A DNA stretch of 30,480 bases, from IMG/VR virus record IMGVR_UViG_3300037200_000158, positions 64,001 through 94,480 of that record; one strand, written 5' to 3'. Below, piece by piece: positions 2,410 through 30,480 of this stretch. The notes beneath the pieces are model-generated. The model searched no databases. It was given only the letters and a program-made list of their open reading frames with translations, and was not told the DNA's origin. The translations under genes were made by a program, and so were the position numbers. Numbering within the stretch: position 1 is the first letter of the stretch; each line of letters opens with the position of its first letter. The DNA comes from a virus.

Positions 2410-3207
2410 GTGACGTGGATTAAAGACCAAAACGGAAACCGCGCATCGGTTGAGCGGTGGGGATCGGAAGAAGCGGCGCGGGCATCGCTGGCCACCCTCG
2501 AAGATTGCTCCGGTTGCTCCGATTGCTCCGGTTGCTCCGGTTGCTCCGATTGCTCCGGTTGCTCCGATTGCTCCGGTTGCTCCGGTTGCTCCGATTGCTC
2601 CGGTTGCTACGATTGCTCCGATTGCTCCGGTTGCTACGATTGCTCCGATTGCTCCCGTTGCTCCGATTGCTCCCGTTGCTCCCGTTGCTACGATTGCTCC
2701 GATTGCTCCGGTTGCTACGATTGCTCCGATTGCTCCCGTTGCTCCGATTGCTCCCGTTGCTCCGATTGCTCCGGTTGCTCCGATTGCTCCCGTTGCTCCG
2801 ATTGCTCCCGTTGCTCCGGTTGCTCCGGTTGCTCCGGTTGCTCCGGTTGCTCCGATTGCTCCGGCCTGAAGAGCGCCTCGCCGCAAAGTGGCCCGCTGGG
2901 AGCACCGCCGATTCCGCGCATTGACAAGATCCACAGTGCGATCTACGCTGCCGTTAGTCAACCGGACGCACTGAACATGGGCGCATTCCATACCTGCGAG
3001 ACAACGCACTGCCGCGCAGGCTGGGCGATTCAGTTGGCAGGCGACGCCGGCAAGGCGCTGGAAGCGTTCCACAACTCAGAACTGGCCGCAATGCTGATCT
3101 ATGAAGCCAGCGGTTACCCGATCAACCCTGCGCGATTCTACGACGGCGATGCGGCGGCACTGGCGGATATGAAGCGCCTTGCGGAGGCTGAAGTAATCGC
3201 GAGTTGA
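2410..3207 (+). CDS. Cys-Ser-X tripeptide repeat protein
   Basis: A GTG start follows a perfect AAGGAGG site with 7-base spacing. The N-terminus ([19 protein letters not shown], about 30 residues) leads into 40 uninterrupted Cys-Ser/Tyr-Gly/Asp/Arg triplets at residues 33-152. A separate C-terminal domain of about 105 residues follows ([35 protein letters not shown]), of a type I recall from phage and proteobacterial hypothetical proteins. Forty regularly spaced cysteines suggest a metal-loaded or disulfide-linked solenoid. Function unknown. The repeat is open in all six frames, but only this frame has a ribosome site and conserved-looking flanking domains. Confidence 0.85.
2506..2865 (+). 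repeat. 9-bp tandem repeat, 40 units, coding
   Basis: Forty head-to-tail copies of TGC-TCC/TAC-GGT/GAT/CGT encode the Cys-Ser/Tyr-X array. All units are 9 bp without indels, and variation is confined to a few single-base positions. Higher-order patterns (for example a block ending in GGT-TAC-GAT) recur, which points to unequal exchange or slippage. The last unit differs at a synonymous base (GGC). Confidence 0.97.
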
Positions 3208-3369: not shown

Positions 3370-3723
3370 ATGAATATCGAACAGGTGGCGCGTATTTGCC
3401 ACGCAGCGAATCTGGAGTTCTGCGAGAGCATTGGCGATTCCAGTCAGAAGCCGTGGGATCAGGCGGAGCCATGGCAGCGCGAATCAGCCGTCAAGGGCGT
3501 GAAATTCAAACTCGACAATCCGCTAGCAGCGCCGTCGGCACAGCATGACGCGTGGTGCGCGGATAAGATTGCGGGCGGCTGGGTCTTCGGTAAGGTCAAG
3601 GATGCAACGGCGAAGACGCACCCCTGCCTCGTTCCATACGACCAACTCCCGCTCGATCAGCGCATTAAGGATTTCCTCTTCGTCGGCATCGTCGAAGCGT
3701 TCCGAAAGGCCGAAGCGGAATGA
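3370..3723 (+). CDS. RyR-domain protein
   Basis: The 117-residue product matches the phage-type ryanodine-receptor repeat (RyR, Pfam PF02026) proteins: an N-terminal helical part (IEQVARICHAANLEFCES), then W-x-A-E-P-WQRESAV, the HDAWCADKIAGGWVFG segment, THPCLVPYDQLP, and a final helix. In eukaryotic channels this repeat is a structural and modulatory domain. In bacteria and phages its ligand is not established to my knowledge. The stop overlaps the start of the NAMPT-like gene by ATGA, so the two are translationally coupled. This raises the possibility that it senses a nicotinamide- or ADP-ribose-type ligand, which is inference. Confidence 0.85.
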   Translation: MNIEQVARICHAANLEFCESIGDSSQKPWDQAEPWQRESAVKGVKFKLDNPLAAPSAQHDAWCADKIAGGWVFGKVKDATAKTHPCLVPYDQLPLDQRIKDFLFVGIVEAFRKAEAE

Positions 3724-5213
3724 TAAACCCGATGCTGTTGGCAGACTTCTACAAGGTCGGCCATGAGGCGCAGTACCCGAAAGACGTAACGCAAATATGG
3801 TCCAACTGGACGCCACGGTCGAGTCGCGTGCCCGGCCAGAGTACCGTCGTCCACTTCGGTCTTCAGTACTTCATCAAGGACTACCTGATGCGGCGCTTTC
3901 AGCATGGATTCTTCGCGCGGCCGCTGGGCTTAGTACTTCAGGAGTACGGGCGGGTCGTGGCAACCTGCCTCGGCGTAGACAATCCACGGATCGATCATAT
4001 TGCCTGGCTTCACAGCCTCGGCTATCTCCCGGTCGACATCTATTCAATCCCCGAGGGCTATTCAACACCATTGGGAGTGCCGTCGCTCGTCATCACGAAC
4101 ACACTCCCAGAAGCGTTCTGGCTGCCGAACTACTTCGAGACGATGCTCAGCATGTGCCTATGGAAGCCGTCAACCTCGGCTACAACCGCCCAGCGTTTCC
4201 GCAAGATTGGAATGAAGTGGGCGAAGGCGGCGGGCGAAACCGACTTCGGCTTCGTGGACTGGCAGTTCCACGACTTCTCGATGCGTGGCATGTCCGGCCT
4301 TGAGGACGCGATCCTGAGCGGTATGGGGCACCTGACGAGCTTCAGCGGCACCGATACAATTCCGGCCATCGTCGCGGCGCGTGAGTTCTACGGGGCGAGT
4401 CTGGCATGCGGTGGCAGCGTCCCGGCCACAGAGCATTCGGTCATGTGCGCCGGCGGCAAGGACGGTGAGTTCGAGACATTCCGGCATCTGATTGAGGACG
4501 TGTACCCGAGCGGCGTTCTGTCGATCGTGAGCGACACATGGGACTTGTGGAAGGTGCTGACGGACTACATTCCCCGCCTGAAGGACGTGATCCTTGCGCG
4601 CAAAGGCAAGATTGTCATCCGGCCCGACAGCGGCGATCCGGTCAAGATCATCCTGGGCGATGACGAAGACGGACTGCGTGATATTCTCCGCGCGGACGAA
4701 CTGAAACCGCTGAACATCGGCGTCATTGATCTGCTCGCCAAGGCGCTGGGCACGACCGGCGGCATGATAAACAACGCTGCCGCTATCTACGGCGACTCGA
4801 TCAACGAAGAACGCGCTGAAGCCATCCTGAAGGGTCTCGTTCAGCGCGGCTACTCGCCATATAACGAGGTGTTCGGGATAGGCAGTTTCACTTACGAATG
4901 GCGGACGCGCGACACCTACGGATTCGCCATGAAGGCTACTGCTGTTCGACGTAGCGGCACGGTCTGCGACATCTTCAAGGACCCGGTGACTGACACTGCG
5001 GACACCCCGAAGAAGTCCCACAAGGGCATTCCCGCCGTCTATCGCACTGAGATGTCGACGGAGGACAATCCTGAGTACTTCGTGAAGGAAGGAGCGAAGC
5101 CGGAGGACCTTGACAACTGTGCGTTCGAGAAGGTCTACAGCAACGGGCGCCTGCTGATCGACACTAACTTTGACACGATCCGGCGGAGGGTTCGGGCATG
5201 GGAGCGCGTGTGA
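3720..5213 (+). CDS. nadV: nicotinamide phosphoribosyltransferase family (NAMPT/NadV or Namat)
   Basis: NAMPT joins nicotinamide to PRPP to make NMN; the phage relative Namat joins nicotinamide to ADP-ribose-pyrophosphate, giving NAD+ directly. The 497-residue length is normal. Hallmarks are FYKVGHEAQYP at the N-terminus, FHDFSMRGMSG, FSGTDTIPAI, the PATEHSVM motif with the active-site histidine, SIVSDTWDLWKVL, and the phosphate-binding IVIRPDSGDP. It overlaps the RyR gene by 4 bases and the PRPP-synthetase-like gene by 1-16 bases. The pairing with a Prs-like gene and no NMN adenylyltransferase favours the NARP1 interpretation over simple NMN synthesis. Family assignment is firm; exact substrate is not decided by sequence. 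Confidence 0.96.
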   Translation: MINPMLLADFYKVGHEAQYPKDVTQIWSNWTPRSSRVPGQSTVVHFGLQYFIKDYLMRRFQHGFFARPLGLVLQEYGRVVATCLGVDNPRIDHIAWLHSLGYLPVDIYSIPEGYSTPLGVPSLVITNTLPEAFWLPNYFETMLSMCLWKPSTSATTAQRFRKIGMKWAKAAGETDFGFVDWQFHDFSMRGMSGLEDAILSGMGHLTSFSGTDTIPAIVAAREFYGASLACGGSVPATEHSVMCAGGKDGEFETFRHLIEDVYPSGVLSIVSDTWDLWKVLTDYIPRLKDVILARKGKIVIRPDSGDPVKIILGDDEDGLRDILRADELKPLNIGVIDLLAKALGTTGGMINNAAAIYGDSINEERAEAILKGLVQRGYSPYNEVFGIGSFTYEWRTRDTYGFAMKATAVRRSGTVCDIFKDPVTDTADTPKKSHKGIPAVYRTEMSTEDNPEYFVKEGAKPEDLDNCAFEKVYSNGRLLIDTNFDTIRRRVRAWERV

Positions 5214-6079
5214 TGTTCAAGTCGTGCCTGAATATCACCTTGCGCGATGACTCGCCATCGTACGAGTGCTTCGGTTATCCTGGCGGGGAGTGGCAGGTCC
5301 GGCTGAAGGGTCCGGTGACCGCAGATCACGTTCGCGTGATAGCGCGCCTCCAAAACGCCGCCGACATCCTCAAGCTCGCGCTGCTGAAGAATGCTATCGG
5401 CAACAAGCCGTATACGGAACTCATCCTCCCGTACCTCCCATATTCGCGGGCCGACCGAGCCTTCGTCCCGAATGACTGCGTGGGCCTCGACGCCTTCGGA
5501 AGCGTCATTAATTCCATGGCGTGGGACGCGGTAGTCACCCTCGACGCACACAACCACATCGCGGCGGTGACCTACATCGCGGCGCTTCTTGACGTGCCGG
5601 CTGATCTTTTCATTCAGCGCGCAATAGTTGAGTTCGCCCACAAGCATCAAGCGAAAAGGATCACCGTGCTCTTCCCTGACGAGGGCGCGCGGCTGCGCTA
5701 CTACGTTCTACCGCCGATCATCGGTTCCAATCTGGAGATTATCGAACTGGACGTGAAGCAATGCGAGAAGGTGCGCAACCCGGCAGACGGAAAGTTATTG
5801 TACTTCGACCTGCCGCCGCTCGACAACTCGCAGCCAGCCATCATCGTTGACGACATCTGCGACGGTGGCGGAACGTTCGTCGGCATCGCGCAGAAGGCCG
5901 GTGTCCTCAACCTTGGGCTTTACGTCACCCATGGCATCTTCAGTAGAAGCCTTGAGGTTCTGTTCTCCTACTTCGATCACATTTACACGACCGATAGTTT
6001 CCGCACGGACTATCCGGCCTATCCAAACCTGACGGTTATGACCGCCGTCGAGGAAATCCTCCGCCAGAGCAAATCATGA
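5198..6079 (+). CDS. prs: ribose-phosphate pyrophosphokinase-like (Prs/Adps)
   Basis: The protein resembles PRPP synthetase, which moves pyrophosphate from ATP to ribose-5-phosphate. Visible are the flexible-loop motif LPYLPYSRADR, a TLDAHN segment matching the metal-binding region, the PRPP-binding loop IIVDDICDGGGTF, and YVTHGIFS. At 293 residues it is slightly shorter than housekeeping Prs. The Adps enzyme of phage NARP1 is a Prs homologue that instead makes ADP-ribose-pyrophosphate for a NAMPT-like partner, and this gene lies directly after such a partner. Two starts are possible: ATG 5198 (GGAGGG upstream) or ATG 5213, overlapping the preceding TGA. Confidence 0.93.
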   Translation: MGARVMFKSCLNITLRDDSPSYECFGYPGGEWQVRLKGPVTADHVRVIARLQNAADILKLALLKNAIGNKPYTELILPYLPYSRADRAFVPNDCVGLDAFGSVINSMAWDAVVTLDAHNHIAAVTYIAALLDVPADLFIQRAIVEFAHKHQAKRITVLFPDEGARLRYYVLPPIIGSNLEIIELDVKQCEKVRNPADGKLLYFDLPPLDNSQPAIIVDDICDGGGTFVGIAQKAGVLNLGLYVTHGIFSRSLEVLFSYFDHIYTTDSFRTDYPAYPNLTVMTAVEEILRQSKS

Positions 6080-17016: not shown

Positions 17017-17036
17017 GGTAGTGGCTCAGTTTGAAA
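17017..17036 (+). repeat. left terminal inverted repeat
   Basis: GGTAGTGGCTCAGTTTGAAA pairs with the right end at 20752-20771, and is also near-identical to the right end of the small element in the tRNA. Confidence 0.92.
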
Positions 17037-17047
17037 TTCTTCGTTCA

Positions 17048-17401
17048 TCACTTTGAATCGGCTGCCTGCGGGTCATCGACTTGGTTGTCGCCGGGGCCAG
17101 ATGGATAACTGGTATAGACCGATATGCACAAAGGAGCGAACTCCCCGACCAGGCGTTGCTGTGAGTGTCCGTCAGCGTCGGCCTTCGCGGGAGAGGTAAC
17201 CGACCAGTCCCACGTTCTGCAAATCTGGCCGGTTTGCGTATCAAAGGCAACGCCGTCGTCAGGAGGGAATCGTGGCAGTACGAACCTGTGTAGCGGGGGC
17301 TTAGGCACGGTCACCTTTACAGGTGCTGGTTTTGGTGGCGTGCTGTCGCAAGAGTTCTGCTGCGCCAGCACGATCAGTGCGATTCCGAGCGTGAGCCGCA
17401 T
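17048..17401 (-). CDS. small exported protein, element cargo
   Basis: The ATG at 17401 (a GTG precedes it) begins MRLTLGIALIVLAQQNSC, a signal peptide with a cysteine near its end that is only a loose lipobox. A Pro/Lys-rich linker (PKPAPVKVTVPKPP) follows, then a small domain (VAFDTQTGQICRTWDWS) containing a pattern I recall from exported proteins of Acidobacteria-like genomes. The C-terminus runs to within about 30 bases of the element's left end. Probably an envelope-associated protein; function unknown. Confidence 0.7.
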   Translation of the reverse strand: MRLTLGIALIVLAQQNSCDSTPPKPAPVKVTVPKPPLHRFVLPRFPPDDGVAFDTQTGQICRTWDWSVTSPAKADADGHSQQRLVGEFAPLCISVYTSYPSGPGDNQVDDPQAADSK

Positions 17402-17444
17402 CACCAGATGCTATCGCAAAACAGGCTCTCTTACCCGAAAACGG

Positions 17445-18023
17445 CTAAAAAGCGATAGGGATCATAAGGGGAGATGTCACGTGTCCACCGTGGCTAGCCG
17501 ATACCATCATAAAGACGGAAGTCGCGGCACCGATCACATCGACAACCGCAAGCGCAATGAAAATACAGCGAAGCCAGAAAGTGATGGCGGTTCGTTTCAA
17601 CTTTCCCGATATATAAGCATCGGGATCTTCCAAAATCCGCAGATGGCCACCCTGCCCAGCCGTTGTCCCTATTGAGAAATTCAGGGAAGAGTTCATCCCC
17701 GGTATCGCATCGGTCAGTCCCATGCGGTTTTCAAGTAAAGTCTTCTTTACTATCGTTCGTCGATAGTACTCATGGCTCTTCGTGATCGAGATCGATCCGA
17801 TAGCCGAGGTTGCGAACCCCAGCAGAAATAAAATTCCTATAAATAGATAAACGGCTGGCGGGTTGTCGAGCTTCAAGAGTCCTGTAGCGACTGTGAGTAT
17901 GCCGCTATTCAGGACGAGGAAATATGTGGTTCTGTCCCATCCGAGCCGCACCTCAAACCGATACTCATCGAGGGCTAAGCGATACAGGTCAAGAAGCTTT
18001 TCCGGAAGAGGCGAATCGGGCAC
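17445..18023 (-). CDS. three-span membrane protein, element cargo
   Basis: A GTG start lies 9 bases after the Nudix-like gene's stop. The 192 residues show an N-terminal amphipathic helix (LLDLYRLALDEYRFEVRLGW), two spans close together (TYFLVLNSGILTVATGLL; VYLFIGILFLLGFATSAIG), a cytosolic loop (HEYYRRTIVKKTLLENRMG) and a third span (FWLRCIFIALAVVDVIGAAT). This layout resembles SLATT/S-4TM-type membrane effectors predicted in nucleotide-dependent conflict systems, but I cannot confirm membership. Coupling to a Nudix-like protein supports a two-gene module. It ends with TAG. Confidence 0.75.
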   Translation of the reverse strand: MPDSPLPEKLLDLYRLALDEYRFEVRLGWDRTTYFLVLNSGILTVATGLLKLDNPPAVYLFIGILFLLGFATSAIGSISITKSHEYYRRTIVKKTLLENRMGLTDAIPGMNSSLNFSIGTTAGQGGHLRILEDPDAYISGKLKRTAITFWLRCIFIALAVVDVIGAATSVFMMVSASHGGHVTSPLMIPIAF

Positions 18024-18032
18024 CGTGGCCCT

Positions 18033-18548
18033 TTACTCCGCCAGCGAGCGGTAAAGCTCGAAAACCCTCAGGAAGGTGGGAGTGAACTTACGCGTTCGGC
18101 CCGCAATCATCCCAATGATTTGGTTGATTGAAACAAATTCCGCCTTGTCAACCTGTGAACTATCAAAGCGGAAAGGCCCTTCACTGAAGCATCGAAACAA
18201 ACTGATGAACTTCAGGCATCCATCATCAATCATCTCGGTTTTTGCCAAAAACGAAACGCTGGCACCGGGGATTCCGAGTTCCTGACCAACTCTTCGCCGC
18301 GCAGCCTCAAAGTAACCCTCGGAGGAAAAAAGGTATGCGGCCACAGAAGACCCCCACGCACCTGGATTACGTTCTCTGGTCAGAGCGAGCCGTTGAAGCA
18401 GAAGGTCGCCGTTCGAGTTAAATACGAACACATGGGCAACTCGGAAGTTTGCGTGTTTCTGAAAAACCTCCGCACGCCGGATTGTTCCGATTGGGATATC
18501 GGCCTGATCGACCGCATCGATGATCATCGCCTGCCCAACCGACGCCAT
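18033..18548 (-). CDS. Nudix-fold protein with altered catalytic box, element cargo
   Basis: The 171 residues have the Nudix fold pattern: RAEVFQKHANFRVAHVFVF, GDLLLQRLALTRERNPGAWG, then a Nudix-box region EGYFEAARRRVGQELGI. The consensus REUXEEXGU is changed: the first Glu is Arg (RRV) and the next acidic position is Gln (GQELG), leaving one of the usual metal ligands. The protein may therefore bind a nucleotide-diphosphate ligand rather than hydrolyse it efficiently. It is transcribed divergently from the XRE gene through a shared operator and co-transcribed with the membrane protein. Confidence 0.82.
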   Translation of the reverse strand: MASVGQAMIIDAVDQADIPIGTIRRAEVFQKHANFRVAHVFVFNSNGDLLLQRLALTRERNPGAWGSSVAAYLFSSEGYFEAARRRVGQELGIPGASVSFLAKTEMIDDGCLKFISLFRCFSEGPFRFDSSQVDKAEFVSINQIIGMIAGRTRKFTPTFLRVFELYRSLAE

Positions 18549-18595
18549 AGATCGTCTCGTTTCTCTTCACCAGCCATTTTCCCGCTGTTGAAGTG

Positions 18596-18647
18596 ACAAG
18601 TAAACTTGTTAACAAGTCTACTTGACGACGAAAGACACGTCAAGTAG
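18596..18647. promoter_or_regulatory. divergent operator array and symmetric promoters
   Basis: Half-sites ACAAGT (18596), ACTTGT (18604), ACAAGT (18612) and ACTTGA (18620) alternate in orientation exactly every 8 bases; TCAAGT follows at 18640. Overlapping palindromes result: 18596-18609, 18604-18617, and 10-base arms 18618-18627 with 18638-18647. TTGACG 18622-18627, 17 bases, TAGTCT 18645-18650 could serve the XRE gene. The mirror on the minus strand, TTGACG-17-TAGACT, could serve the Nudix gene. The adjacent XRE protein is the likely binder. Confidence 0.75.
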
Positions 18648-18662
18648 TCTGGAACGGTATCC

Positions 18663-19055
18663 GTGTCAGCAACGCGACCAGTCGGGGAACTTCGGGAACA
18701 GGCTTCCGCTCTGATTATTCAGAAGCTGAAGACCATATCTGCGGCCCAAGCGGCTCGCGATTTAGGCGTCACTCGTCAGGCTGTTTATGGGTTCAAAAGC
18801 GGAGAGTTCTGCCCATCCCTAGCAGTGATACAGCGCGCGTGCAAGGCTTGGGAGTTGCAGTTCAACGTCAACGGGATGACTATATCCGCAGAGAGTTTCA
18901 AAACAGGATCGAAGCCTACTCCGGCACCGGTGAGTGCGCAGTTGACCTTTTTTGACCTTTGGACTCAGCTTCAGGATCAGAAAATGACGGTGGTTCGCGC
19001 CCGCCGCATTGACGGCGCCGTGGAGATGACTTTACGAATCTCTATGCCAGCCTGA
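18663..19055 (+). CDS. XRE-type HTH regulator, element cargo
   Basis: The GTG start lies about 13 bases after the putative -10, so the mRNA has almost no leader. The 130 residues contain an HTH (ISAAQAARDLGVTRQAVYGF, then FCPSLAVIQRACKAWEL) at about 28-67. A C-terminal region (LTFFDLWTQLQDQKMTVVRA) may dimerise. It is divergent from the Nudix and membrane genes across the operator array, the usual layout for an autoregulated repressor of a toxin- or defence-like pair. Confidence 0.85.
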   Translation: MSATRPVGELREQASALIIQKLKTISAAQAARDLGVTRQAVYGFKSGEFCPSLAVIQRACKAWELQFNVNGMTISAESFKTGSKPTPAPVSAQLTFFDLWTQLQDQKMTVVRARRIDGAVEMTLRISMPA

Positions 19056-19136
19056 CGAACGTGTAATCATTACGGTGATGAACACCAAGCGTCCACCCCT
19101 GACAATCGCACACCGGGGCGGCACTGAAAAAGAAAA

Positions 19137-19167
19137 GCCAGCGATCTCCGTTTTGGAGATCGCTGGC
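19137..19167 (-). terminator. intrinsic terminator, minus strand
   Basis: A perfect 13-bp stem (19137-19149 with 19155-19167) and 5-base loop are followed on the minus strand by TTTTCTTTTT. It ends the short transposase-remnant transcript, and may stop it from entering the XRE gene region. Confidence 0.8.
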
Positions 19168-19196
19168 AAGTTACAGCAGGGATCAGGCAGCGATTT

Positions 19197-19292
19197 TTAC
19201 AAACTGGTCATTCTGGCGACGGCGCGGATACTGTTTCCTTCAACGAGCGCCGCAACCGCCTTTGCTCGCTTGTCGGGATCAAGTCGATTCAT
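19197..19292 (-). pseudogene. N-terminal remnant of IS1-like transposase
   Basis: A 31-codon ORF reads MNRLDPDKRAKAVAALVEGN then SIRAVARMTSL and stops. This closely resembles the N-terminal HTH of IS1-type transposases (a KR..V...L.EGNSIR..AR pattern). The catalytic part is absent. A strong terminator lies 30 bases downstream on the same strand. It is either decay of the transposase that once moved this element, or a retained HTH peptide that might still bind the element. Confidence 0.6.
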
Positions 19293-19327
19293 ATTGATAT
19301 TATGCTTGAGGCAGGCGCCATAGTAAA

Positions 19328-19372
19328 GTACTGGCATAGATTTATTTTCGTACCAGTACATTGTGATATACT
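19328..19372 (+). promoter_or_regulatory. promoter and palindrome for the P63C gene
   Basis: TGATATACT (19364-19372) is an extended -10 (TGn plus TATACT), ending 10 bases before ATG 19383, so the transcript would be nearly leaderless. GTACTGG (19328-19334) and CCAGTAC (19353-19359) flank the -35 region and may be an operator. Confidence 0.5.
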
Positions 19373-19382
19373 CGCATACCTT

Positions 19383-20465
19383 ATGGCAACTTTAGATGAC
19401 GCACCGGTAGATGGGCGCCGCCGCTCAGGGCAGGCCAGAATGGAGCAACTGACCAAGGAGGAACGCACAGAACTCGCAAAAAAGGCCGCAAGGGGGCGGT
19501 GGCAGATGAATGAAGAAAACGCAGAAGTCTATGAAGCGTTCCGAAGCGCCGATCTTGAAATCGCGGACCAACTTGTACCTTGCGCGGTGCTGATGGTGAA
19601 CGGTGAACCGGTCCGAGTGGTCTCCGAACGTGGCCTTGTTAAATCCTTTGGTGGTAAACGCGGTGGCGCCCATTGGCGCCGCATGAAGAAGGATTCGGAG
19701 AATACCGACCTTCCCGTCATCATCTCAGCGCTCAACCTGCGCCCATATATCAGCCAGGACTTACGGGACATGCTCGGCACCAGATATCCGTACAAAGGCG
19801 CTGGGGCCGGAGCATCAGCAGCGGGGATACGCGTCGAAGCGTATCCAATGATATGCGATGTGCTTTTGAAGGCAAGGGATGCGAACGCCCTCATTGGTAA
19901 AGGCCAGGAGGAAATAGCGAAGTCTGCCGATATCCTCATGCGCGGGCTGGCGCACACTGGGATTATTGCACTGGTCGATGAGGCAACCGGGTTCCAGATT
20001 CACCGGCCCTCGGACGCGCTGGCCAGAATTCTCGGAGCGTTCATCGCTAAGGAGCTCCAGCCGTACGTTCCCACGTTTCCGCAGGAATTCTACGAGGAAC
20101 TTTTTCGGTTGCGCCATCTGGATTACCGGAAGGATTCAGTCCAGCGCCCGCAGTATTTCGGGATGCTCACGAATGACATCGTGTACAAGCGGCTGGCGCC
20201 TGGCGTACTTGAAGAACTTCGGCGCGTGACCGCTCGAAACGAGAGCGGTAGACCGAAACATAAACTGTTCCAGAGGTTGACCGCGAACCGTGGATACCCC
20301 AAACTTATCTACCATCTCGGTCAAGTGGTCGCGACCATGAAGTCGAGTTCAGAGTATAAGGAGTTCATCCGAAAGTTGGATCAAATCCGCCCGCGTTACG
20401 GGCAGACGATGCAACTCCCATTTCCTGATTACGAAGAAGGAAACGATACCGGATCAGGTCTTTGA
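19383..20465 (+). CDS. P63C-domain protein, element cargo
   Basis: The product contains the P63C domain found in phage and bacterial proteins: LAHTGIIALVDEATGFQ, LQPYVPTFPQEFYEELFRLR, RPQYFGMLTNDIVYKRLAPG, ARNESGRPKHKLFQRL and YPKLIYHLGQVV. Its molecular function is not established. The N-terminal motif LTKEERTELAKKAARGRW is shared with the convergent small gene at 20454. I start at ATG 19383 because an extended -10 lies just upstream; ATG 19302 is in frame but lies before the promoter. The 360 residues look complete. Confidence 0.85.
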   Translation: MATLDDAPVDGRRRSGQARMEQLTKEERTELAKKAARGRWQMNEENAEVYEAFRSADLEIADQLVPCAVLMVNGEPVRVVSERGLVKSFGGKRGGAHWRRMKKDSENTDLPVIISALNLRPYISQDLRDMLGTRYPYKGAGAGASAAGIRVEAYPMICDVLLKARDANALIGKGQEEIAKSADILMRGLAHTGIIALVDEATGFQIHRPSDALARILGAFIAKELQPYVPTFPQEFYEELFRLRHLDYRKDSVQRPQYFGMLTNDIVYKRLAPGVLEELRRVTARNESGRPKHKLFQRLTANRGYPKLIYHLGQVVATMKSSSEYKEFIRKLDQIRPRYGQTMQLPFPDYEEGNDTGSGL

Positions 20466-20705
20466 CTCGCCCCACCGGGCCTTCGCAGCCTTTTTTGCAA
20501 TCTCTGCGCGTTGCTCTGGCGAGAGCTTGTCGGCTCTCGCCTTCCCGCCCTTCAGCCCGCCCAATCTTCCCAGCGAGACCGCCGCCGGGTTCTTTTCCGG
20601 CGCGACCGGCTTCTCCATCTGGCCGGTTGCCATGAGAACAGTCTCGAAAGCGCGGACGTTCAGGTCGGGCTTTCCCTTCCCTCGATTGCTTGACCGGTTC
20701 GGCAT
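20454..20705 (-). CDS. KGGKAR-type small basic protein, element cargo
   Basis: ATG 20705 follows GGAG and gives MPNRSSNRGKGKPDLNVRAF, then NPAAVSLGRLGGLKGGKARA and LSPEQRAEIAKKAAKARW. The Lys/Ala/Gly-rich repeats recall histone-H1-like or SPW/KGG-type proteins common in Acidobacteria and relatives. The last motif also occurs at the N-terminus of the convergent P63C protein, whose 3' end it overlaps by 12 bases. Possibly DNA binding; not shown. Confidence 0.7.
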   Translation of the reverse strand: MPNRSSNRGKGKPDLNVRAFETVLMATGQMEKPVAPEKNPAAVSLGRLGGLKGGKARADKLSPEQRAEIAKKAAKARWGESKT

Positions 20706-20751
20706 ATCTCCAGCGTGACGGAGGATCGCGCCCGGTGTCAATGGGGGCCGG

Positions 20752-20771
20752 ATTCAAATTGAGCCACTACC
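20752..20771 (-). repeat. right terminal inverted repeat
   Basis: Read on the minus strand it is GGTAGTGGCTCAATTTGAAT, matching the left end with one mismatch in 19. Confidence 0.92.
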
Positions 20772-20891: not shown

Positions 20892-22052
20892 ATGTATGTA
20901 TCTTACAGCAATAAAAAGCCTTTAGCTATAGATTTGTATGCCGGTTTAGGCGGGTGGGCCGAAGGATTTCTGGCCGAGGGCTACGACGTGGTGGGGTTTG
21001 ACATCGAACGACACCGATACCCAGAGATGAAGGCCGAGCGCGACAACAAAGGATTTGGTGGCACTTGGTTCCATAATGCCGAACTGGGTACCACGAATCC
21101 GAATCGGAGCCGCGATGGTGGCGGAATCCCCACTGGACGCCTGGCAGAATATCCAGGCCAACTGGTGCTTCAGGACGTGATGACGATCCATGGAAGCCAG
21201 TTCAAGGACGCCACGTGCATCGTCGCCAGCCCGCCTTGCCAGGCGTATTCGTACCTCGCGATGCCGTGGTCACGCTCACCGGATGTCGTTCGTCCGTGCG
21301 GCGACGGATGGGAAATCCTTAACTCCGCAGCAGCAAAGGAAATGCGCGCGGAATGGGAGCACGAGGGGCCAGATAACCGGCTGTTCGATGCGTGCTTCAG
21401 GATTCAGCGGGAAGCGTGCGAAGTTGCGGACCGGTACATCCCTCTGATCGTCGAGAACGTTCGCGGCGCAATCCCGTGGGTGGGGCGCAGCGCATGGAAC
21501 TACGGGAGCTTCCACCTGTGGGGCGATGTGCCGGCCTTGATGCCGATTACGCTGAAACATAAGAAAGTGCCGGGATTTCGGTTCGATGGAAGCGGGCGCA
21601 GTTTCCAGACCGCATCAGTTGAGGCGACAGAGAAGGGAGCGTGGGACAACACAGTGCCGGGTAGACTGCGGCGCGACGATTCGCTCAACTTCGGAGGCGT
21701 GAAAGTCCCCGGCCAGATCCACGGCACCGAATACGCGCTCACCCGCGCAGGAGCCGGCGGGCAAACCACGCTTTCGACGCGCGACGGCGAGAAAACACAC
21801 GGCCACGTAAATAAGCGGGACGGGCACAGCCACACGCGGCACCTGACCAACCAGGCCGAATCGGACGCTGTGAAGCAGTGCGCCGGGAACGGCGACTGGT
21901 TCAGCAAGGAAGCGCGGGACGGCGGGGCAAGCGCGCGGTACGGCAGCAAATCCAATGCCCGAAAGCAGGCATCCGCTCAGATAGCGAAGATCCCGTTTGA
22001 ATTGGCGCGGCACATCGCAGCGACATACAAGCGGCCCAAACTTTTGGTATGA
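20892..22052 (+). CDS. C5-cytosine DNA methyltransferase
   Basis: The 386-residue protein methylates cytosine in DNA using SAM. Motif I is AIDLYAGLGGWAEGF; motif IV is CIVASPPCQAYSYL with the catalytic Cys; motif VI is LIVENVRGAIP; motif X is QIAKIPFELARHIAATYK. The variable region includes HGTEYALTRAGAGG. The first 19 codons (MYVSYSNKKPLAIDLYAGL) use AT-rich codons unlike the rest and duplicate the remnant at 16546. No ribosome site is evident. Phage methyltransferases often protect DNA from host restriction; the partner-free context fits that. Confidence 0.93.
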   Translation: MYVSYSNKKPLAIDLYAGLGGWAEGFLAEGYDVVGFDIERHRYPEMKAERDNKGFGGTWFHNAELGTTNPNRSRDGGGIPTGRLAEYPGQLVLQDVMTIHGSQFKDATCIVASPPCQAYSYLAMPWSRSPDVVRPCGDGWEILNSAAAKEMRAEWEHEGPDNRLFDACFRIQREACEVADRYIPLIVENVRGAIPWVGRSAWNYGSFHLWGDVPALMPITLKHKKVPGFRFDGSGRSFQTASVEATEKGAWDNTVPGRLRRDDSLNFGGVKVPGQIHGTEYALTRAGAGGQTTLSTRDGEKTHGHVNKRDGHSHTRHLTNQAESDAVKQCAGNGDWFSKEARDGGASARYGSKSNARKQASAQIAKIPFELARHIAATYKRPKLLV

Positions 22053-22064
22053 TTTCCACCAGGA

Positions 22065-22559
22065 ATGGACGCCACTCTCAACGACGAAGAACTTCCGCTC
22101 TACAGCCAGGGCTATGACCCGATAACCGCGCAGGAGGGCCTCCAACTCCTCGGATTTTACCCCGGCTACGAGCTCCGCAAGCTCATCTCGCAACAGAAAG
22201 CCACCTTCAGCCGCGAGGAAGGAACTGGGCGCCGCCGCGTCATCCTGACCGAGAAAGCGGAAGTATCGCGAGCGCGCGCGCTTAGTTCGGCCGGCGCAAC
22301 ACAAGCGCTCTCGACCACCTACACCGAAAACCTCTACCCGGACTCTCCGGCCCAACTCGCCCATAAGAAAGAAAACGGCATCGAGCCAACGGTGACGGCA
22401 ACAGTCATCAGCATGAAGAAGTACCGTGGCCCGCGGGTCGGATTCGTCCCCTACAATGCAACCGAGGGCTTCGCTCGCAAGCGATTCAATCCGGATCGGC
22501 CGCCAAAGCCGCTATTCTGGTCCGCGCGTGCTGCGGAGCGGGCCATCCTCGGGAGATAA
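22065..22559 (+). CDS. hypothetical phage protein
   Basis: This 164-residue protein has an N-terminal region (YDPITAQEGLQLLGFYPGYE, RKLISQQKATFSREEG) that could be a small DNA-binding domain, since a substrate-like LRKLISQQK helix follows a turn. The rest is basic with few predicted helices. It abuts the probable small terminase gene (stop TAA, then ATG). I recognise no family. Confidence 0.65.
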   Translation: MDATLNDEELPLYSQGYDPITAQEGLQLLGFYPGYELRKLISQQKATFSREEGTGRRRVILTEKAEVSRARALSSAGATQALSTTYTENLYPDSPAQLAHKKENGIEPTVTATVISMKKYRGPRVGFVPYNATEGFARKRFNPDRPPKPLFWSARAAERAILGR

Positions 22560-23294
22560 ATGCGGAAGCGTGTTGCAGGTCCGAATCACCGCGTAGTCAG
22601 CAAAGTCACGACCGACAAGGATCCGGTAATCACCGTCACTGGAGAAATCGTTCTTGCCCCGGTCCTCAACGCTATGGATGGAGTTCCGCTGCGCGCCGCG
22701 ACCGGAGCCTACGATCCATCCTTCCCGGATCTCATCGTCCAACTCTTTACGAAGATGCTCGAAACGTCGGGCTCGAAGCGCGCCGATACTCTCACCGAAG
22801 ACGAATTCACCAAGGATCTCCGCAAGAACGCGAAGCCTACGGAGGAACAGAAGAAAGCCGGCGAACCCGGCAAAGAGCGGCTGGTGCGGCAGGAAGCCCG
22901 CAAGATGAAGTCGATGAAGTGGTCTTTCATTTGCGCGGAACTCCCCAGCCTCGCGCGGTTCGGGCGCATGGTCGGCGTCAGCCGGCGGCAGGTCGACCAC
23001 TGGCGGGCGCGCTATCCCAGCTTCGACGAGGCGTGTGAGATGTGCCACGACATGCTGGAGGCGGTCATTGTGCAGCGATCGCTTACCGGGCAATACGATG
23101 CCGACTTCGCGAAGTTCCTGTTGAAGAACTGGCTGGGCTGGAAGGATCGGACGGAGATAACCGGCGCCGACGGTGCGCCCCTGAATCCGCCACCGGAACT
23201 TCGGCTGGTGACAACCGAAGCACTCGAGGATTACCAGCGCGCATTGCTCGAAGCAAAGCAGAAATTACTTCAGGGGGTTTCACCGACAACATGA
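22560..23294 (+). CDS. probable terminase small subunit
   Basis: Small terminases bind the phage packaging site and recruit the large subunit. The C-terminal half has the expected arrangement: an HTH (LARFGRMVGVSRRQVDHWRA), RYPSFDEACEMCHDMLEAVI, VQRSLTGQYDADFAKFLLKN and WLGWKDRTEITGADG. The N-terminal 110 residues are an unusual extension (SFPDLIVQLFTKMLETSGSK then charged). A large-terminase gene would normally follow but here the convergent recombinase gene begins 33 bases on. Domain-level similarity is good; the exact role is inferred. Confidence 0.65.
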   Translation: MRKRVAGPNHRVVSKVTTDKDPVITVTGEIVLAPVLNAMDGVPLRAATGAYDPSFPDLIVQLFTKMLETSGSKRADTLTEDEFTKDLRKNAKPTEEQKKAGEPGKERLVRQEARKMKSMKWSFICAELPSLARFGRMVGVSRRQVDHWRARYPSFDEACEMCHDMLEAVIVQRSLTGQYDADFAKFLLKNWLGWKDRTEITGADGAPLNPPPELRLVTTEALEDYQRALLEAKQKLLQGVSPTT

Positions 23295-25384: not shown

Positions 25385-25455
25385 ATCATGCAGTAGATCC
25401 GAGGTCCACCACAAACGCAAAAAGGGGAGCAACTCTTTCGAGTGCTCCCCTTTGT
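25385..25455 (+). ncRNA. possible small RNA between promoter and terminator
   Basis: A transcript starting near 25391 and ending at the 25421-25453 terminator would be about 65 bases and non-coding. The evidence is only the promoter and terminator layout. The alternative is a leader with attenuator for the tRNA that starts at 25464. Confidence 0.3.
25421..25453 (+). terminator. hairpin terminator before the tRNA
   Basis: AAAGGGGAGCA (25421-25431) pairs with TGCTCCCCTTT (25443-25453), with CTC/GAG continuing inside. The following bases GTCCCATTTT are a weak T-tract. Confidence 0.6.
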
Positions 25456-25516
25456 CCCATTTTGCGGGTGTGGCGGAACGGTAGACGCAGCGGTCTCTAA
25501 AACCGAAGCCTGGTCA

Positions 25517-25524
25517 GCATTGCG
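25517..25524. repeat. target-site duplication in tRNA, left copy
   Basis: GCATTGCG, repeated at 25884-25891 on the other side of the 359-bp element. Confidence 0.92.
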
Positions 25525-25883
25525 GGTAGTGGGTCAGTTACTGCTGTTTGCTACAAGTAAGTGTACGCCCGCATGCATGCAAACTGCAACCGCCTGCCGT
25601 TCGCTCTTGACGCGGCGTTACCTGTTCAAGCACCGCGATGCGAGAGCCTGAATATCGCGACCAAAAAAGCGATGGTTGATACCAGGGCGACCACGCCGAT
25701 GATGAGAAAGAATACACCCATGCTCACCGATCCTTCGAGAATGCTGGACTTCTCGAAGGATCTGTACGGTCTTGCAGCGCTACTGACTCTCCTCGCAACA
25801 TTCGCCCTACTGAGACCACAGAGCACACTTTCACAATTTTCGTTGGTTCCAAGCCAAAGCTCATTTCAAACTGACCCACTACC
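25525..25883. mobile_element. 359-bp inverted-repeat element (MITE-like) in the tRNA
   Basis: The ends are perfect 15-bp inverted repeats (GGTAGTGGGTCAGTT), flanked by the 8-bp duplication GCATTGCG. The right end extends as GGTAGTGGGTCAGTTTGAAA, differing at one base in 20 from the left end of the 3.75-kb element. It has no transposase, only a 31-residue membrane peptide ORF. It is presumably mobilised in trans by the same enzyme. Confidence 0.88.
25626..25721 (-). CDS. 31-residue membrane peptide inside the small element
   Basis: The ORF MGVFFLIIGVVALVSTIAFL then VAIFRLSHRGA is almost entirely one membrane span with a basic end. An AAGGA site about 10 bases upstream lies inside a perfect 13-bp hairpin (25729-25741 with 25750-25762), so translation could be held off by structure. 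Such peptides resemble type I toxins, but no antitoxin RNA is shown. Confidence 0.45.
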   Translation of the reverse strand: MGVFFLIIGVVALVSTIAFLVAIFRLSHRGA

Positions 25884-25891
25884 GCATTGCG
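25884..25891. repeat. target-site duplication in tRNA, right copy
   Basis: GCATTGCG, identical to 25517-25524. Confidence 0.92.
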
Positions 25892-25976
25892 GGTTCGAAT
25901 CCCGCCGCCCGCACCAAAATCCTATCAGGCAGCACGAGGGAAGTAAACCAACGCAATCGCCGCAAATCAACGCAGT

Positions 25977-26135: not shown

Positions 26136-26834
26136 ATGGCCATCGCGACGTTGGCGGTAGCTTGTGCGGCAATCATAATTCAGATCGTATTCTTGGGGGC
26201 TTCCAGCGTGTTCAATCTTGAAGTGACGCTGGTAACGGGAATATCCAGCGTGGTTCTATCTGCTGTCGGCAACTACCTCATCTCGCGCTATCATCGTGAA
26301 TGTGCATCGTCGGGAGACGCCACAGAAACGAGGACCACAGTGAATCCCGCAGCAGGCTTGGAGTGGATACAGGAAATAGATCGCCTGGACCGCGAAGATG
26401 CCACCAGAAGAGAGTTGAATAGACTCGCTCACGTACAAGCTACATCGGTCGTTAAACAAGACGGCCCTCAATTCTTCCATGACCTTCTTGCGGCGCTCGA
26501 ATTGAACGCTGAAGGAATTAAAATCCTCGGGCTTCTCGGTCGAGTCGAAATGATCAGCGAAGACCAAACCGAATGCCAATGGCGTATCACAGTCGAGCGC
26601 CGATCAGCCATCCCGAAATCAACCTGGGTGAATTTATTCTACGCACCCGGGGATGAATCCATCCGCCTTCACACTCGCGACCTGAACACAATTTTCGGCA
26701 AACCTACCGAGTTGACATTGTGTGATGTTGGAGGAAGGGCAGCTTGCGTCTCCGATGGTTTACCGGCTGGCTCAACTGCCCATGATGCCGCCAAACTCAT
26801 CGTGAGCCGCATGGTGACGGCGATTCGGTCGTAA
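26136..26834 (+). CDS. membrane-anchored hypothetical protein
   Basis: The N-terminus has two spans (IATLAVACAAIIIQIVFLGA and LVTGISSVVLSAVGNYLI), then a soluble domain of about 165 residues (WIQEIDRLDREDATRRELNR, FFHDLLAALELNAEGIKIL, STWVNLFYAPGDESIRLHTR). The ATG at 26136 has a weak site. The same frame is open upstream to an in-frame TAG at 26040, and that stretch reads like protein (ELTYGKRLHAAARKDFCATW). A GTG at 26022 lies before the TAG. The real start is therefore uncertain. Function unknown; a phage exclusion or envelope role is possible. Confidence 0.65.
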   Translation: MAIATLAVACAAIIIQIVFLGASSVFNLEVTLVTGISSVVLSAVGNYLISRYHRECASSGDATETRTTVNPAAGLEWIQEIDRLDREDATRRELNRLAHVQATSVVKQDGPQFFHDLLAALELNAEGIKILGLLGRVEMISEDQTECQWRITVERRSAIPKSTWVNLFYAPGDESIRLHTRDLNTIFGKPTELTLCDVGGRAACVSDGLPAGSTAHDAAKLIVSRMVTAIRS

Positions 26835-27322: not shown

Positions 27323-27456
27323 TGTTGCGCCCCCGCCATGAACATCGCCGCAAGAATAGTCCCAAGTGCGATCAGCCCCAGCCACACGTTGAGAATCGCG
27401 CAGGGCCAGCAGCCGCAGCTATCGTGATGCGCGAGGATACGGAAGGCGCGTTTCAT
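27319..27456 (-). CDS. 45-residue membrane protein
   Basis: Coupled at both ends by ATGA overlaps. MKRAFRILAHHDSCGCWPCA carries a CGCWPC cluster directly before one span (ILNVWLGLIALGTILAAMFM). The cysteine cluster next to the membrane is unusual. Function unknown. Confidence 0.6.
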   Translation of the reverse strand: MKRAFRILAHHDSCGCWPCAILNVWLGLIALGTILAAMFMAGAQQ

Positions 27457-27665
27457 CGTAGTCGCCTCGCCATCTCGAGATCGGATTCCGGTTCAGCCGT
27501 CAGGACCGGCACTCGCCGCGCTACCGCCGGCTGTGCCAGCGGGCCCGAGTATTCGAGCTGCGCCCCGCAAATCAGGCACGCCCGGTAGGTGCGTCCGTGT
27601 AGCGTAATCGGGAATGTAGTGCGCCGGTGGCGGCAGCCGAACAGCAGACGGAGTAGGGATTTCAT
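27453..27665 (-). CDS. small zinc-ribbon protein
   Basis: The 70-residue product reads LLRLLFGCRHRRTTFPITLH then GRTYRACLICGAQLEYSG. The C-x-H ... CLxCG pattern is one I recall in small proteins of soil bacteria and phages. It probably binds one zinc. Overlaps at both ends support translation. Confidence 0.7.
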   Translation of the reverse strand: MKSLLRLLFGCRHRRTTFPITLHGRTYRACLICGAQLEYSGPLAQPAVARRVPVLTAEPESDLEMARRLR

Positions 27666-28018
27666 AGAGCACCCCCGTAAACGTCACGCCATCCAAGCCG
27701 GTGGCATTGCCGCGCTACAATCCGCCGCCAGTCAGGGTGATAGGTCTCGTCCGTATTTTCGCCATCGCCGGGAACATAAAGCGTTGGCGTGAGATCCGGC
27801 TCCGTGCGGAATGTGATGCCGAGCCGCTTCGCGTCCGCAATGAGCGTATCAAGCGCGGCCGGTAACTTCTCGGTGGAGATCCGGTAGCGAAGCGCAAGCG
27901 TTCCTTGCGTCGAGGCATCCTGACACCAGCCGTTATCGAGGAAATCGAGATGCAGCGACCAGTCGCGCTCATGGTACTTCAGCACGATTCCGGTAGTCCA
28001 GTAGGCCTCGCCGATCAC
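27662..28018 (-). CDS. hypothetical protein, 118 residues
   Basis: I choose GTG 28018, which overlaps the stop of a 28-residue ORF (GTGA). The protein includes WTTGIVLKYHERDWSLHLDF, a Thr/Arg-rich strand region, AALDTLIADAKRLGITFRTE and WRRIVARQCHRLGW. It appears to be a compact soluble domain. A longer start at 28108 would cover the small membrane ORF in another frame. No family known. Confidence 0.65.
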   Translation of the reverse strand: MIGEAYWTTGIVLKYHERDWSLHLDFLDNGWCQDASTQGTLALRYRISTEKLPAALDTLIADAKRLGITFRTEPDLTPTLYVPGDGENTDETYHPDWRRIVARQCHRLGWRDVYGGAL

Positions 28019-28809: not shown

Positions 28810-29213
28810 GCGGCCTTCCCGGTCGGCGGCACGGCCACCCCCTGTTCGCACGCTAGCCGATACGCCTCGTACTCGGCCAGAGTGGATGCGTTGTAACGGT
28901 CGGCAATAGCCTGCATCGCCGGGATGGCAAGCTCGTACGCGATAGCGTGCGCTTTGCTGCGGACCTCGATGTACCCGGAGGGGTGGGAAGTGTCACGATG
29001 GATAGCCACGCTGGTCGCCCGCCGTTCGCGGGCTGCGTCCGAGATCTCGCGGGCGATAGCCTCGGGGACGCAAGAGTCGATAGCCGCGAAATATTCATCT
29101 TTTATGGCGCGGAAGAGGGTGCGATTCCGCGCCTGGTCAAGGGTTGGGACGGTCGCTTTGGCCTGCATGCGGAGGAGGAGATAATCGAGGTGCTCTGCTG
29201 TCTTCTGTGTCAT
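28806..29213 (-). CDS. hypothetical protein
   Basis: I choose ATG 29213, which overlaps the stop of a 22-residue ORF; GTG 29234 is an alternative. The 135 residues are largely helical (DQARNRTLFRAIKDEYFAAI, SKAHAIAYELAIPAMQAIAD). No motif recognised. Confidence 0.65.
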   Translation of the reverse strand: MTQKTAEHLDYLLLRMQAKATVPTLDQARNRTLFRAIKDEYFAAIDSCVPEAIAREISDAARERRATSVAIHRDTSHPSGYIEVRSKAHAIAYELAIPAMQAIADRYNASTLAEYEAYRLACEQGVAVPPTGKAA

Positions 29214-29897: not shown

Positions 29898-30480
29898 AGA
29901 TTTACTCCCGCGATCTTCTTCGCGTGCTCGATGGAATGGTAATTCCGATACGCCTGCCACGCTCCGATAGTCGGAGACCATCTGAAGCCGTTACGCTTCA
30001 GCCCGCTCCGAATATCCTCGGACGGCTTCCCGTCGAAGAACAGCCGCACGCGATTATCAGCGGGACAGTCTTCGTACCGCGCGTGCTCTCCGGCGATCTC
30101 CGTCGATTCCTTCGCCTGGTTTCGGCTCACCGAAGACAGCCGCTCTTTCATGCGGCGGATGTTCGCGTTATTGTTCGTCAGTTCGAAGTCCGCGAAACCG
30201 ATACGGCCGCAGAAGTCAGGCTGAATCAGTAACGAAGCCCGCGCACGGTCGATACCCAACTCACCGAGCGCGGCAATCTGCGCATCGGCGCCCGACTTCT
30301 TGTGTTTCCGAATCGCGAGGTTCGCCGCCTTCATGCGCTCCTGCACGGCCTCGGCCTTCGCAATCTTATCTTCCAGTCGCTCCGTAGCGTTAGCATCTCC
30401 CGCCATGATCGGACGCCATTCTGGATGCAGCGCTTTCAGAATGGCGTCTTTGGCCCGCGGCAGAAACTCGATAAGCTCCG
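29894..30480 (-). CDS. mobile-element protein, 5' end outside window
   Basis: The frame stays open to the last base of the window (ELIEFLPRAKDAILKALHPE before the first in-window ATG at 30406), so the gene is incomplete. A charged helix (TERLEDKIAKAEAVQERMKA) is followed by a conserved C-terminal module: ADFELTNNNANIRRMKERL-type helix, VRLFFDGKPSEDIRSGLKRN, GFRWSPTIGAWQAYRN. I recall this module in phage and plasmid proteins, sometimes with DUF3560. The activity is unknown. Confidence 0.75.
   Translation of the reverse strand, partial: ELIEFLPRAKDAILKALHPEWRPIMAGDANATERLEDKIAKAEAVQERMKAANLAIRKHKKSGADAQIAALGELGIDRARASLLIQPDFCGRIGFADFELTNNNANIRRMKERLSSVSRNQAKESTEIAGEHARYEDCPADNRVRLFFDGKPSEDIRSGLKRNGFRWSPTIGAWQAYRNYHSIEHAKKIAGVNL

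Follow-up and report, generated by a model that had tools for sequence, protein, structure and literature searches.

The window analyzed here, by which we mean the whole 30,480-nucleotide stretch of viral DNA, contains a tRNA gene that is not intact, being interrupted by a 359-bp insert and an 8-bp duplication (Table 1). Run on the unaltered window, ARAGORN reported no standard tRNA. Once the two parts were joined, the same program returned tRNA(cta), an 86-nt tRNA of the Leu type with CUA at positions 34-36 and an encoded CCA, while among dinucleotide shuffles of the joined stretch a tRNA of any kind appeared in only 1 of 5000. The original prediction of a tRNA split by a small transposon was thus exact in its coordinates, the length of the insert, the duplicated octamer and the length of the tRNA with its CCA, and the cloverleaf of the joined sequence leaves CTA, rather than another triplet, as the anticodon. 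The Leu-type features comprise the D arm GGTAGACGC, a long variable region and A73, and the joined tRNA can be aligned to Leu tRNAs along its whole length. The insert interrupts the T stem in its 5' strand, between nucleotides 51 and 52, and the RNA fold predicted for the split gene has the two inverted ends paired with each other in place of a T stem.

Table 1. Features of the split tRNA locus and of a second element with similar ends (positions in the window).
Feature	Position	Strand	Basis
Window		 	Positions 64001-94480 of a 94,480-base IMG/VR record; record classed as linear
Second element, 3755 bp, ends GGTAGTGGCTCAGTT / AATTGAGCCACTACC, duplication TGTTCACC	17017..20771	.	Inverted-end scan; domain searches
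GC-rich hairpin, ending 13 nt upstream of the tRNA; terminator-like by eye	25424..25450	.	Repeat; not called by the consensus scan
tRNA 5' part, nt 1-61 of the joined 86, including the first copy of the target duplication	25464..25524	+	ARAGORN on joined sequence; Leu/Sup covariance model, 42.8 bits on this half
Anticodon arm GCGGTCTCTAAAACCGA, nt 27-43, G27.A43 unpaired	25490..25506	+	Sequence; identical 17-mer in 12 IMG/VR stretches
Anticodon CTA, nt 34-36	25497..25499	+	ARAGORN cloverleaf of joined sequence
Target duplication GCATTGCG, left copy	25517..25524	.	Inverted-end and direct-repeat scan; ARAGORN join
Non-autonomous insert, 359 bp, no recognisable transposase	25525..25883	.	Ends and duplication
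Left inverted end GGTAGTGGGTCAGTT	25525..25539	+	Perfect 15-bp inverted repeat
Right inverted end AACTGACCCACTACC	25869..25883	-	Perfect 15-bp inverted repeat
Target duplication GCATTGCG, right copy	25884..25891	.	Inverted-end and direct-repeat scan; ARAGORN join
tRNA 3' part, nt 62-86, T loop to CCA (25914-25916)	25892..25916	+	ARAGORN; covariance model match to the 3' half

A Short Insert with IS1-like Ends

A scan for perfect inverted ends of 12 bp (or 9 bp) flanked by an 8-bp direct repeat found two elements in the whole 94-kb record, namely the 359-bp insert and a longer element at 81017-84771 of the record (17017-20771 of the window); five shuffled genomes yielded none. Inverted ends identical to those of the insert bound elements of about 150 to 4250 bp in IMG/VR contigs, many of them with perfect 8-bp duplications. 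In two such elements with perfect duplications, L028 (3150 bp) and L021 (2423 bp), a transposase is encoded that comes closest, among NCBIfam families, to IS1 (E 1e-15 and 6e-14, respectively, both below the curated cut-off), and L028 also matches the Pfam IS1 domain slightly below the gathering score (E 1.4e-4). On these signatures we classify the insert as a non-autonomous, MITE-like member of an IS1-like family. It resembles the miniature derivatives of IS1-family elements in being short, in lacking a recognisable transposase, in its IS1-like inverted ends and in its 8-bp duplication, but differs from them in an interior that is without matches: no second copy was found in the phage, in IMG/VR (22-mer search), in phage and plasmid records or in 299 genomes, the last giving a single 29-base match. 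Since the several near-identical copies that define a MITE were not found, the insert is termed MITE-like only. The perfect state of both the duplication and the inverted ends suggests a young insertion.

The second element carries genes for an 8xMP membrane protein, a NUDIX protein, an HTH protein and a P63C-domain protein, and no transposase was recognised within it. It is a cargo transposon within the phage, possibly a defence-type cassette. As neither element has a recognised transposase, the enzyme presumably came from elsewhere, probably from the host.

The Phage and Its Relatives

The major head protein of the phage belongs to the P22 coat family (Pfam P22_CoatProtein, E 9e-25) and genes for a head-closure protein, a DNA-ejection protein and a terminase are also present in the record, which identifies it as a P22-like tailed phage of 94 kb. 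The nearest record found, G001 (31.7 kb), encodes a coat protein that is 90% identical and is collinear with phage positions 5-28 kb in the opposite orientation; its stretch nearest the tRNA locus carries other genes. A search for an intact copy of the tRNA in relatives had been proposed as a check; the six nearest phage records have no copy of it, although these records may be fragments. A search for relatives through the neighbouring proteins (22560-23294 and 26136-26834) likewise found none. The case for a past function in this phage lineage is consequently built from the sequence of the gene itself, and the simplest reading is that the tRNA is accessory, having either been acquired in this lineage or disappeared from the others.

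Four of the relatives (G002, G003, G004, and G006) have other tRNAs, some of them odd. In G004 two adjoining tRNAs with Leu anticodons (CAA and TAA; L201:5093-5241) have short variable arms and T loops reading TGCAAGT in place of TTCGAAT. A tRNA-like gene in G005 (L202:18116-18223), called by ARAGORN only when an intron is allowed, combines an anticodon stem of 6 bp and a loop of 8 nt (CTAACGGA) with a variable region that is very long. The phage itself carries a degenerate tRNA-like stretch at record positions 29980-30061 (L122:9980-10061), 46 nt upstream of a tRNA-Met, with TTCTAAA at the anticodon position and a CCA end (model score 21.3 bits, E 0.003), which is perhaps the relic of a second amber tRNA.

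Among the protein-coding genes of the phage, the one at record positions 51071-59509 (L123:11071-19509) encodes a polyvalent protein of 2812 aa with DNA polymerase III beta-clamp, methyltransferase and Acb1-like/2',5'-ligase-like domains. Within the window, a protein encoded at 2410-3207 has a long stretch of CSGCSDCS-type pentad repeats, and at 3720-6079 a nicotinamide phosphoribosyltransferase-like gene is followed by a ribose-phosphate pyrophosphokinase-like gene (the latter identified by eye), which suggests a phage NAD-synthesis pair.

Leu-type CTA tRNAs and a Recurrent Anticodon Arm

Intact Leu-type tRNAs with a CTA anticodon exist but are rare. A strict pattern for such genes matched six stretches in a genome collection of 84,980 species, three of which are tRNAs (L209, L212, and L213), and gave no match in IMG/VR. 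With a looser pattern, IMG/VR yielded one intact tRNA (L217) as well as a Leu-type CTA tRNA on a 140-kb viral contig (L221:5208-5353). The latter is longer by some 55 bases next to its anticodon arm, which perhaps represent an intron or a further insertion. The tRNA in L209 adjoins a CRISPR-Cas cluster and that in L212 an AAA-ATPase/subtilase pair; both tRNAs are perhaps integration sites of islands. The best match to the split gene is L213, which is intact, 89% identical over nucleotides 6-77, and has the CUA anticodon along with the same G27.A43 mismatch. Its contig, binned in a Microbacteriaceae MAG, is phage-like, since it encodes a serine integrase and an endolysin that both match PHROG families strongly. 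The existence of this intact CUA sister makes it most likely that the CUA of the split gene is older than the insertion.

The anticodon arm of the split tRNA recurs in other phage amber tRNAs. Searching IMG/VR for the exact 17-mer GCGGTCTCTAAAACCGA, that is, for the mismatch form alone (the comparison form of the arm being GCGGTCTCTAAAACCGC), gave 12 stretches with 10 distinct sequences, all of them tRNA-like. ARAGORN calls tRNA(cta) at eight (L249, L251, L252, L254, L256, L257, L259, and L260), with bodies of both class I and class II, while the other four (L250, which is cut by the contig end, L253, L255, and L258) were judged tRNA-like by eye. As a control we used 399 genomes of one phylum, that of a Hyphomicrobiales MAG. 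Among Leu tRNAs with a YAA anticodon and G27, A43 was seen in none of these genomes, as against the paired form in 157. The same arm does occur in tRNA-Trp (anticodon CCA) of 17 of the 399 genomes, all ten loci that were read being tRNA-Trp. Within a set of 11 CTA tRNAs that had not been chosen on the 27/43 pair, three are unpaired there (L213 and L265 with G.A, L266 with A.A).

This mismatch has a precedent in Escherichia coli, where, according to the account of Komine and Inokuchi (1990) given in PMC13092985, a tRNA-Thr with its natural G27-A43 and a CUA anticodon reads through UAG more efficiently than a version with a 5-bp stem. The likeness to the present gene lies in the CUA and in the unpaired G27.A43 at the top of the anticodon stem; the tRNA described there was engineered on a Thr body, whereas the present one is of the Leu type. 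Given that the arm is also found in ordinary Trp tRNAs, we do not treat G27.A43 as a hallmark of suppressors: it is suggestive, not diagnostic, and is no proof that the tRNA acted as one.

UAG as an Ordinary Stop

The amber anticodon raised the question of whether the phage is recoded. The original prediction had observed that TAG ends few genes of the window and took this as compatible with use or avoidance of UAG in the lineage. When the genes of the phage were modelled simply, from codon usage (86 genes), the scarcity held for the window, where TAG ends 1 of 24 modelled genes, against 14 of 61 elsewhere (Fisher p = 0.06), and disappeared across the phage as a whole, where TAG ends 15 of 86 (17%), inside the range of the six relatives (10-31%). 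TAG-ended genes include a large structural gene that is portal-like by size and position (record positions 18205-20478), a gene directly before the coat gene that is scaffold-like by position (21498-22727) and an ejection gene (47943-48938). In G001 to G006 the homologous genes use TAA or TGA at the corresponding point or near it; for instance, the TAG of 21498-22727 corresponds to a TGA in G001, that of 27370-27786 to a TGA and that of 28983-29198 to a TAA. A TAG that stands in frame between two long genes, both scoring well, was seen just once; it parts two genes of the ejection region, the first of which has homologues that end with their own TGA or TAA. A scan of the structural genes in the rest of the phage, suggested earlier as a check, accordingly found no gene that needs UAG to be read through, and the idea of a lineage using or avoiding UAG as a codon is not supported. 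The part of the genome poor in TAG is the window, while the half with the structural genes uses TAG freely, which is the reverse of what late decoding of UAG would lead one to expect.

Among 715 phages with a predicted code 15, Sup-CTA tRNAs were found in 375 (PMC11210395; see also PMC10879173). These resemble the present case in the CUA anticodon and in being phage-borne tRNA genes, but the present phage lacks recoding and its tRNA gene is both Leu-like and split; the pattern that marks code 15, with in-frame TAG in conserved genes and TAG unused as a stop, is absent.

Origin and Fate of the Amber tRNA

Taken together, these observations make it likely, in our view, that an accessory amber-suppressor tRNA of the leucine type, once complete, was split by a non-autonomous IS1-like element and that its loss has been tolerated. 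In the scenario we propose, the phage would formerly have had the complete tRNA, which is predicted from A73, the long variable arm and the Leu-type D arm to have been charged by the leucyl-tRNA synthetase of the host. It would then have competed with release factor 1 at UAG and allowed partial read-through, the targets of which may have been host, prophage or mutated phage genes. The element subsequently inserted into the T stem, presumably by means of a transposase acting in trans, and generated the 8-bp duplication; the split transcript would no longer be expected to fold as a cloverleaf or to yield a mature tRNA. Several points count against this explanation. The consensus scan found no promoter upstream of the tRNA, which, along with the terminator-like hairpin in front of the gene, leaves its expression before the insertion open to doubt. 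The six nearest records have no intact copy, the arm is shared with ordinary Trp tRNAs, and the transposase matches fall below the NCBIfam cut-off.

An ordinary tRNA-Leu(CAA) could have arrived at CTA by drift (A35 to T) after the insertion had killed the gene. The two anticodons are a single base apart, a dead gene is free to drift, and Leu(CAA) and Leu(TAA) tRNAs are, over the whole gene, nearly as similar to the split tRNA as the best CTA tRNA. A precedent for the base change itself is E. coli supP, a tRNA-Leu(CAA) changed to CUA, which shares with the present gene the Leu-type body and the expected insertion of leucine, though supP is a laboratory mutant of a chromosomal gene and the present tRNA is a phage gene with G27.A43. 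However, the apparent youth of the insertion speaks against drift, as do the intact L213 with the very mismatch that is missing from Leu-YAA tRNAs, and the recurrence of the exact arm with CUA in other phage amber tRNAs, which decay would not be expected to produce. We therefore disfavour this origin and regard it as unlikely.

The split gene might also still be useful, if the insert were removed from the DNA by excision or from the RNA by splicing, so that the tRNA could be switched on. The pairing of the inverted ends in the predicted fold would bring the two halves together, and ARAGORN, when introns are allowed, proposes a 74-nt tRNA(cta) with a 379-nt 'intron' at 37/38. This solution borrows bases from the transposon end, apparently by chance, no intron or ribozyme family was found at the locus (the Rfam matches there being to the tRNA half only), and precise excision that also removes one copy of the duplication is not typical of IS1-type elements, all of which makes a switchable tRNA highly improbable. 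Even less credible is a lineage in which UAG stood for an amino acid in part of the genes until a recent return to the standard code. The amber tRNA itself, the low TAG count of the window and the TTCTAAA of the degenerate stretch would fit such a history, but the frequent TAG stops elsewhere, homologues that stop likewise with TAA or TGA, a TAG fraction like that of the relatives and the lack of coding-like extension through TAG, save at the one junction in the ejection region, lead us to reject it.

The amber tRNA is thus real but probably inactivated, and the phage can do without it. With UAG an ordinary stop throughout the genome, its loss costs the phage nothing that is visible from its own genes. 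A phage amber tRNA and a recoded phage, which are often read together, here come apart: the tRNA existed in a genome in which UAG is a normal stop, and its disruption was tolerated.

The amber tRNA and the element that split it are both of known kinds, and it is the recurrent anticodon arm that is worth following. As a tentative proposal, which we hold to be possible rather than probable, phage amber tRNAs with Leu-like, Ser-like or class I bodies may repeatedly have gained or kept the loosened arm GCGGUCUCUAAAACCGA with G27.A43, a natural counterpart of the laboratory change that raises UAG reading; phages without recoding may carry such tRNAs as well, in which case the tRNAs would be dispensable and could be lost to transposons. 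The recurrent arm thereby offers a concrete, testable hypothesis for how natural phage suppressors are tuned.
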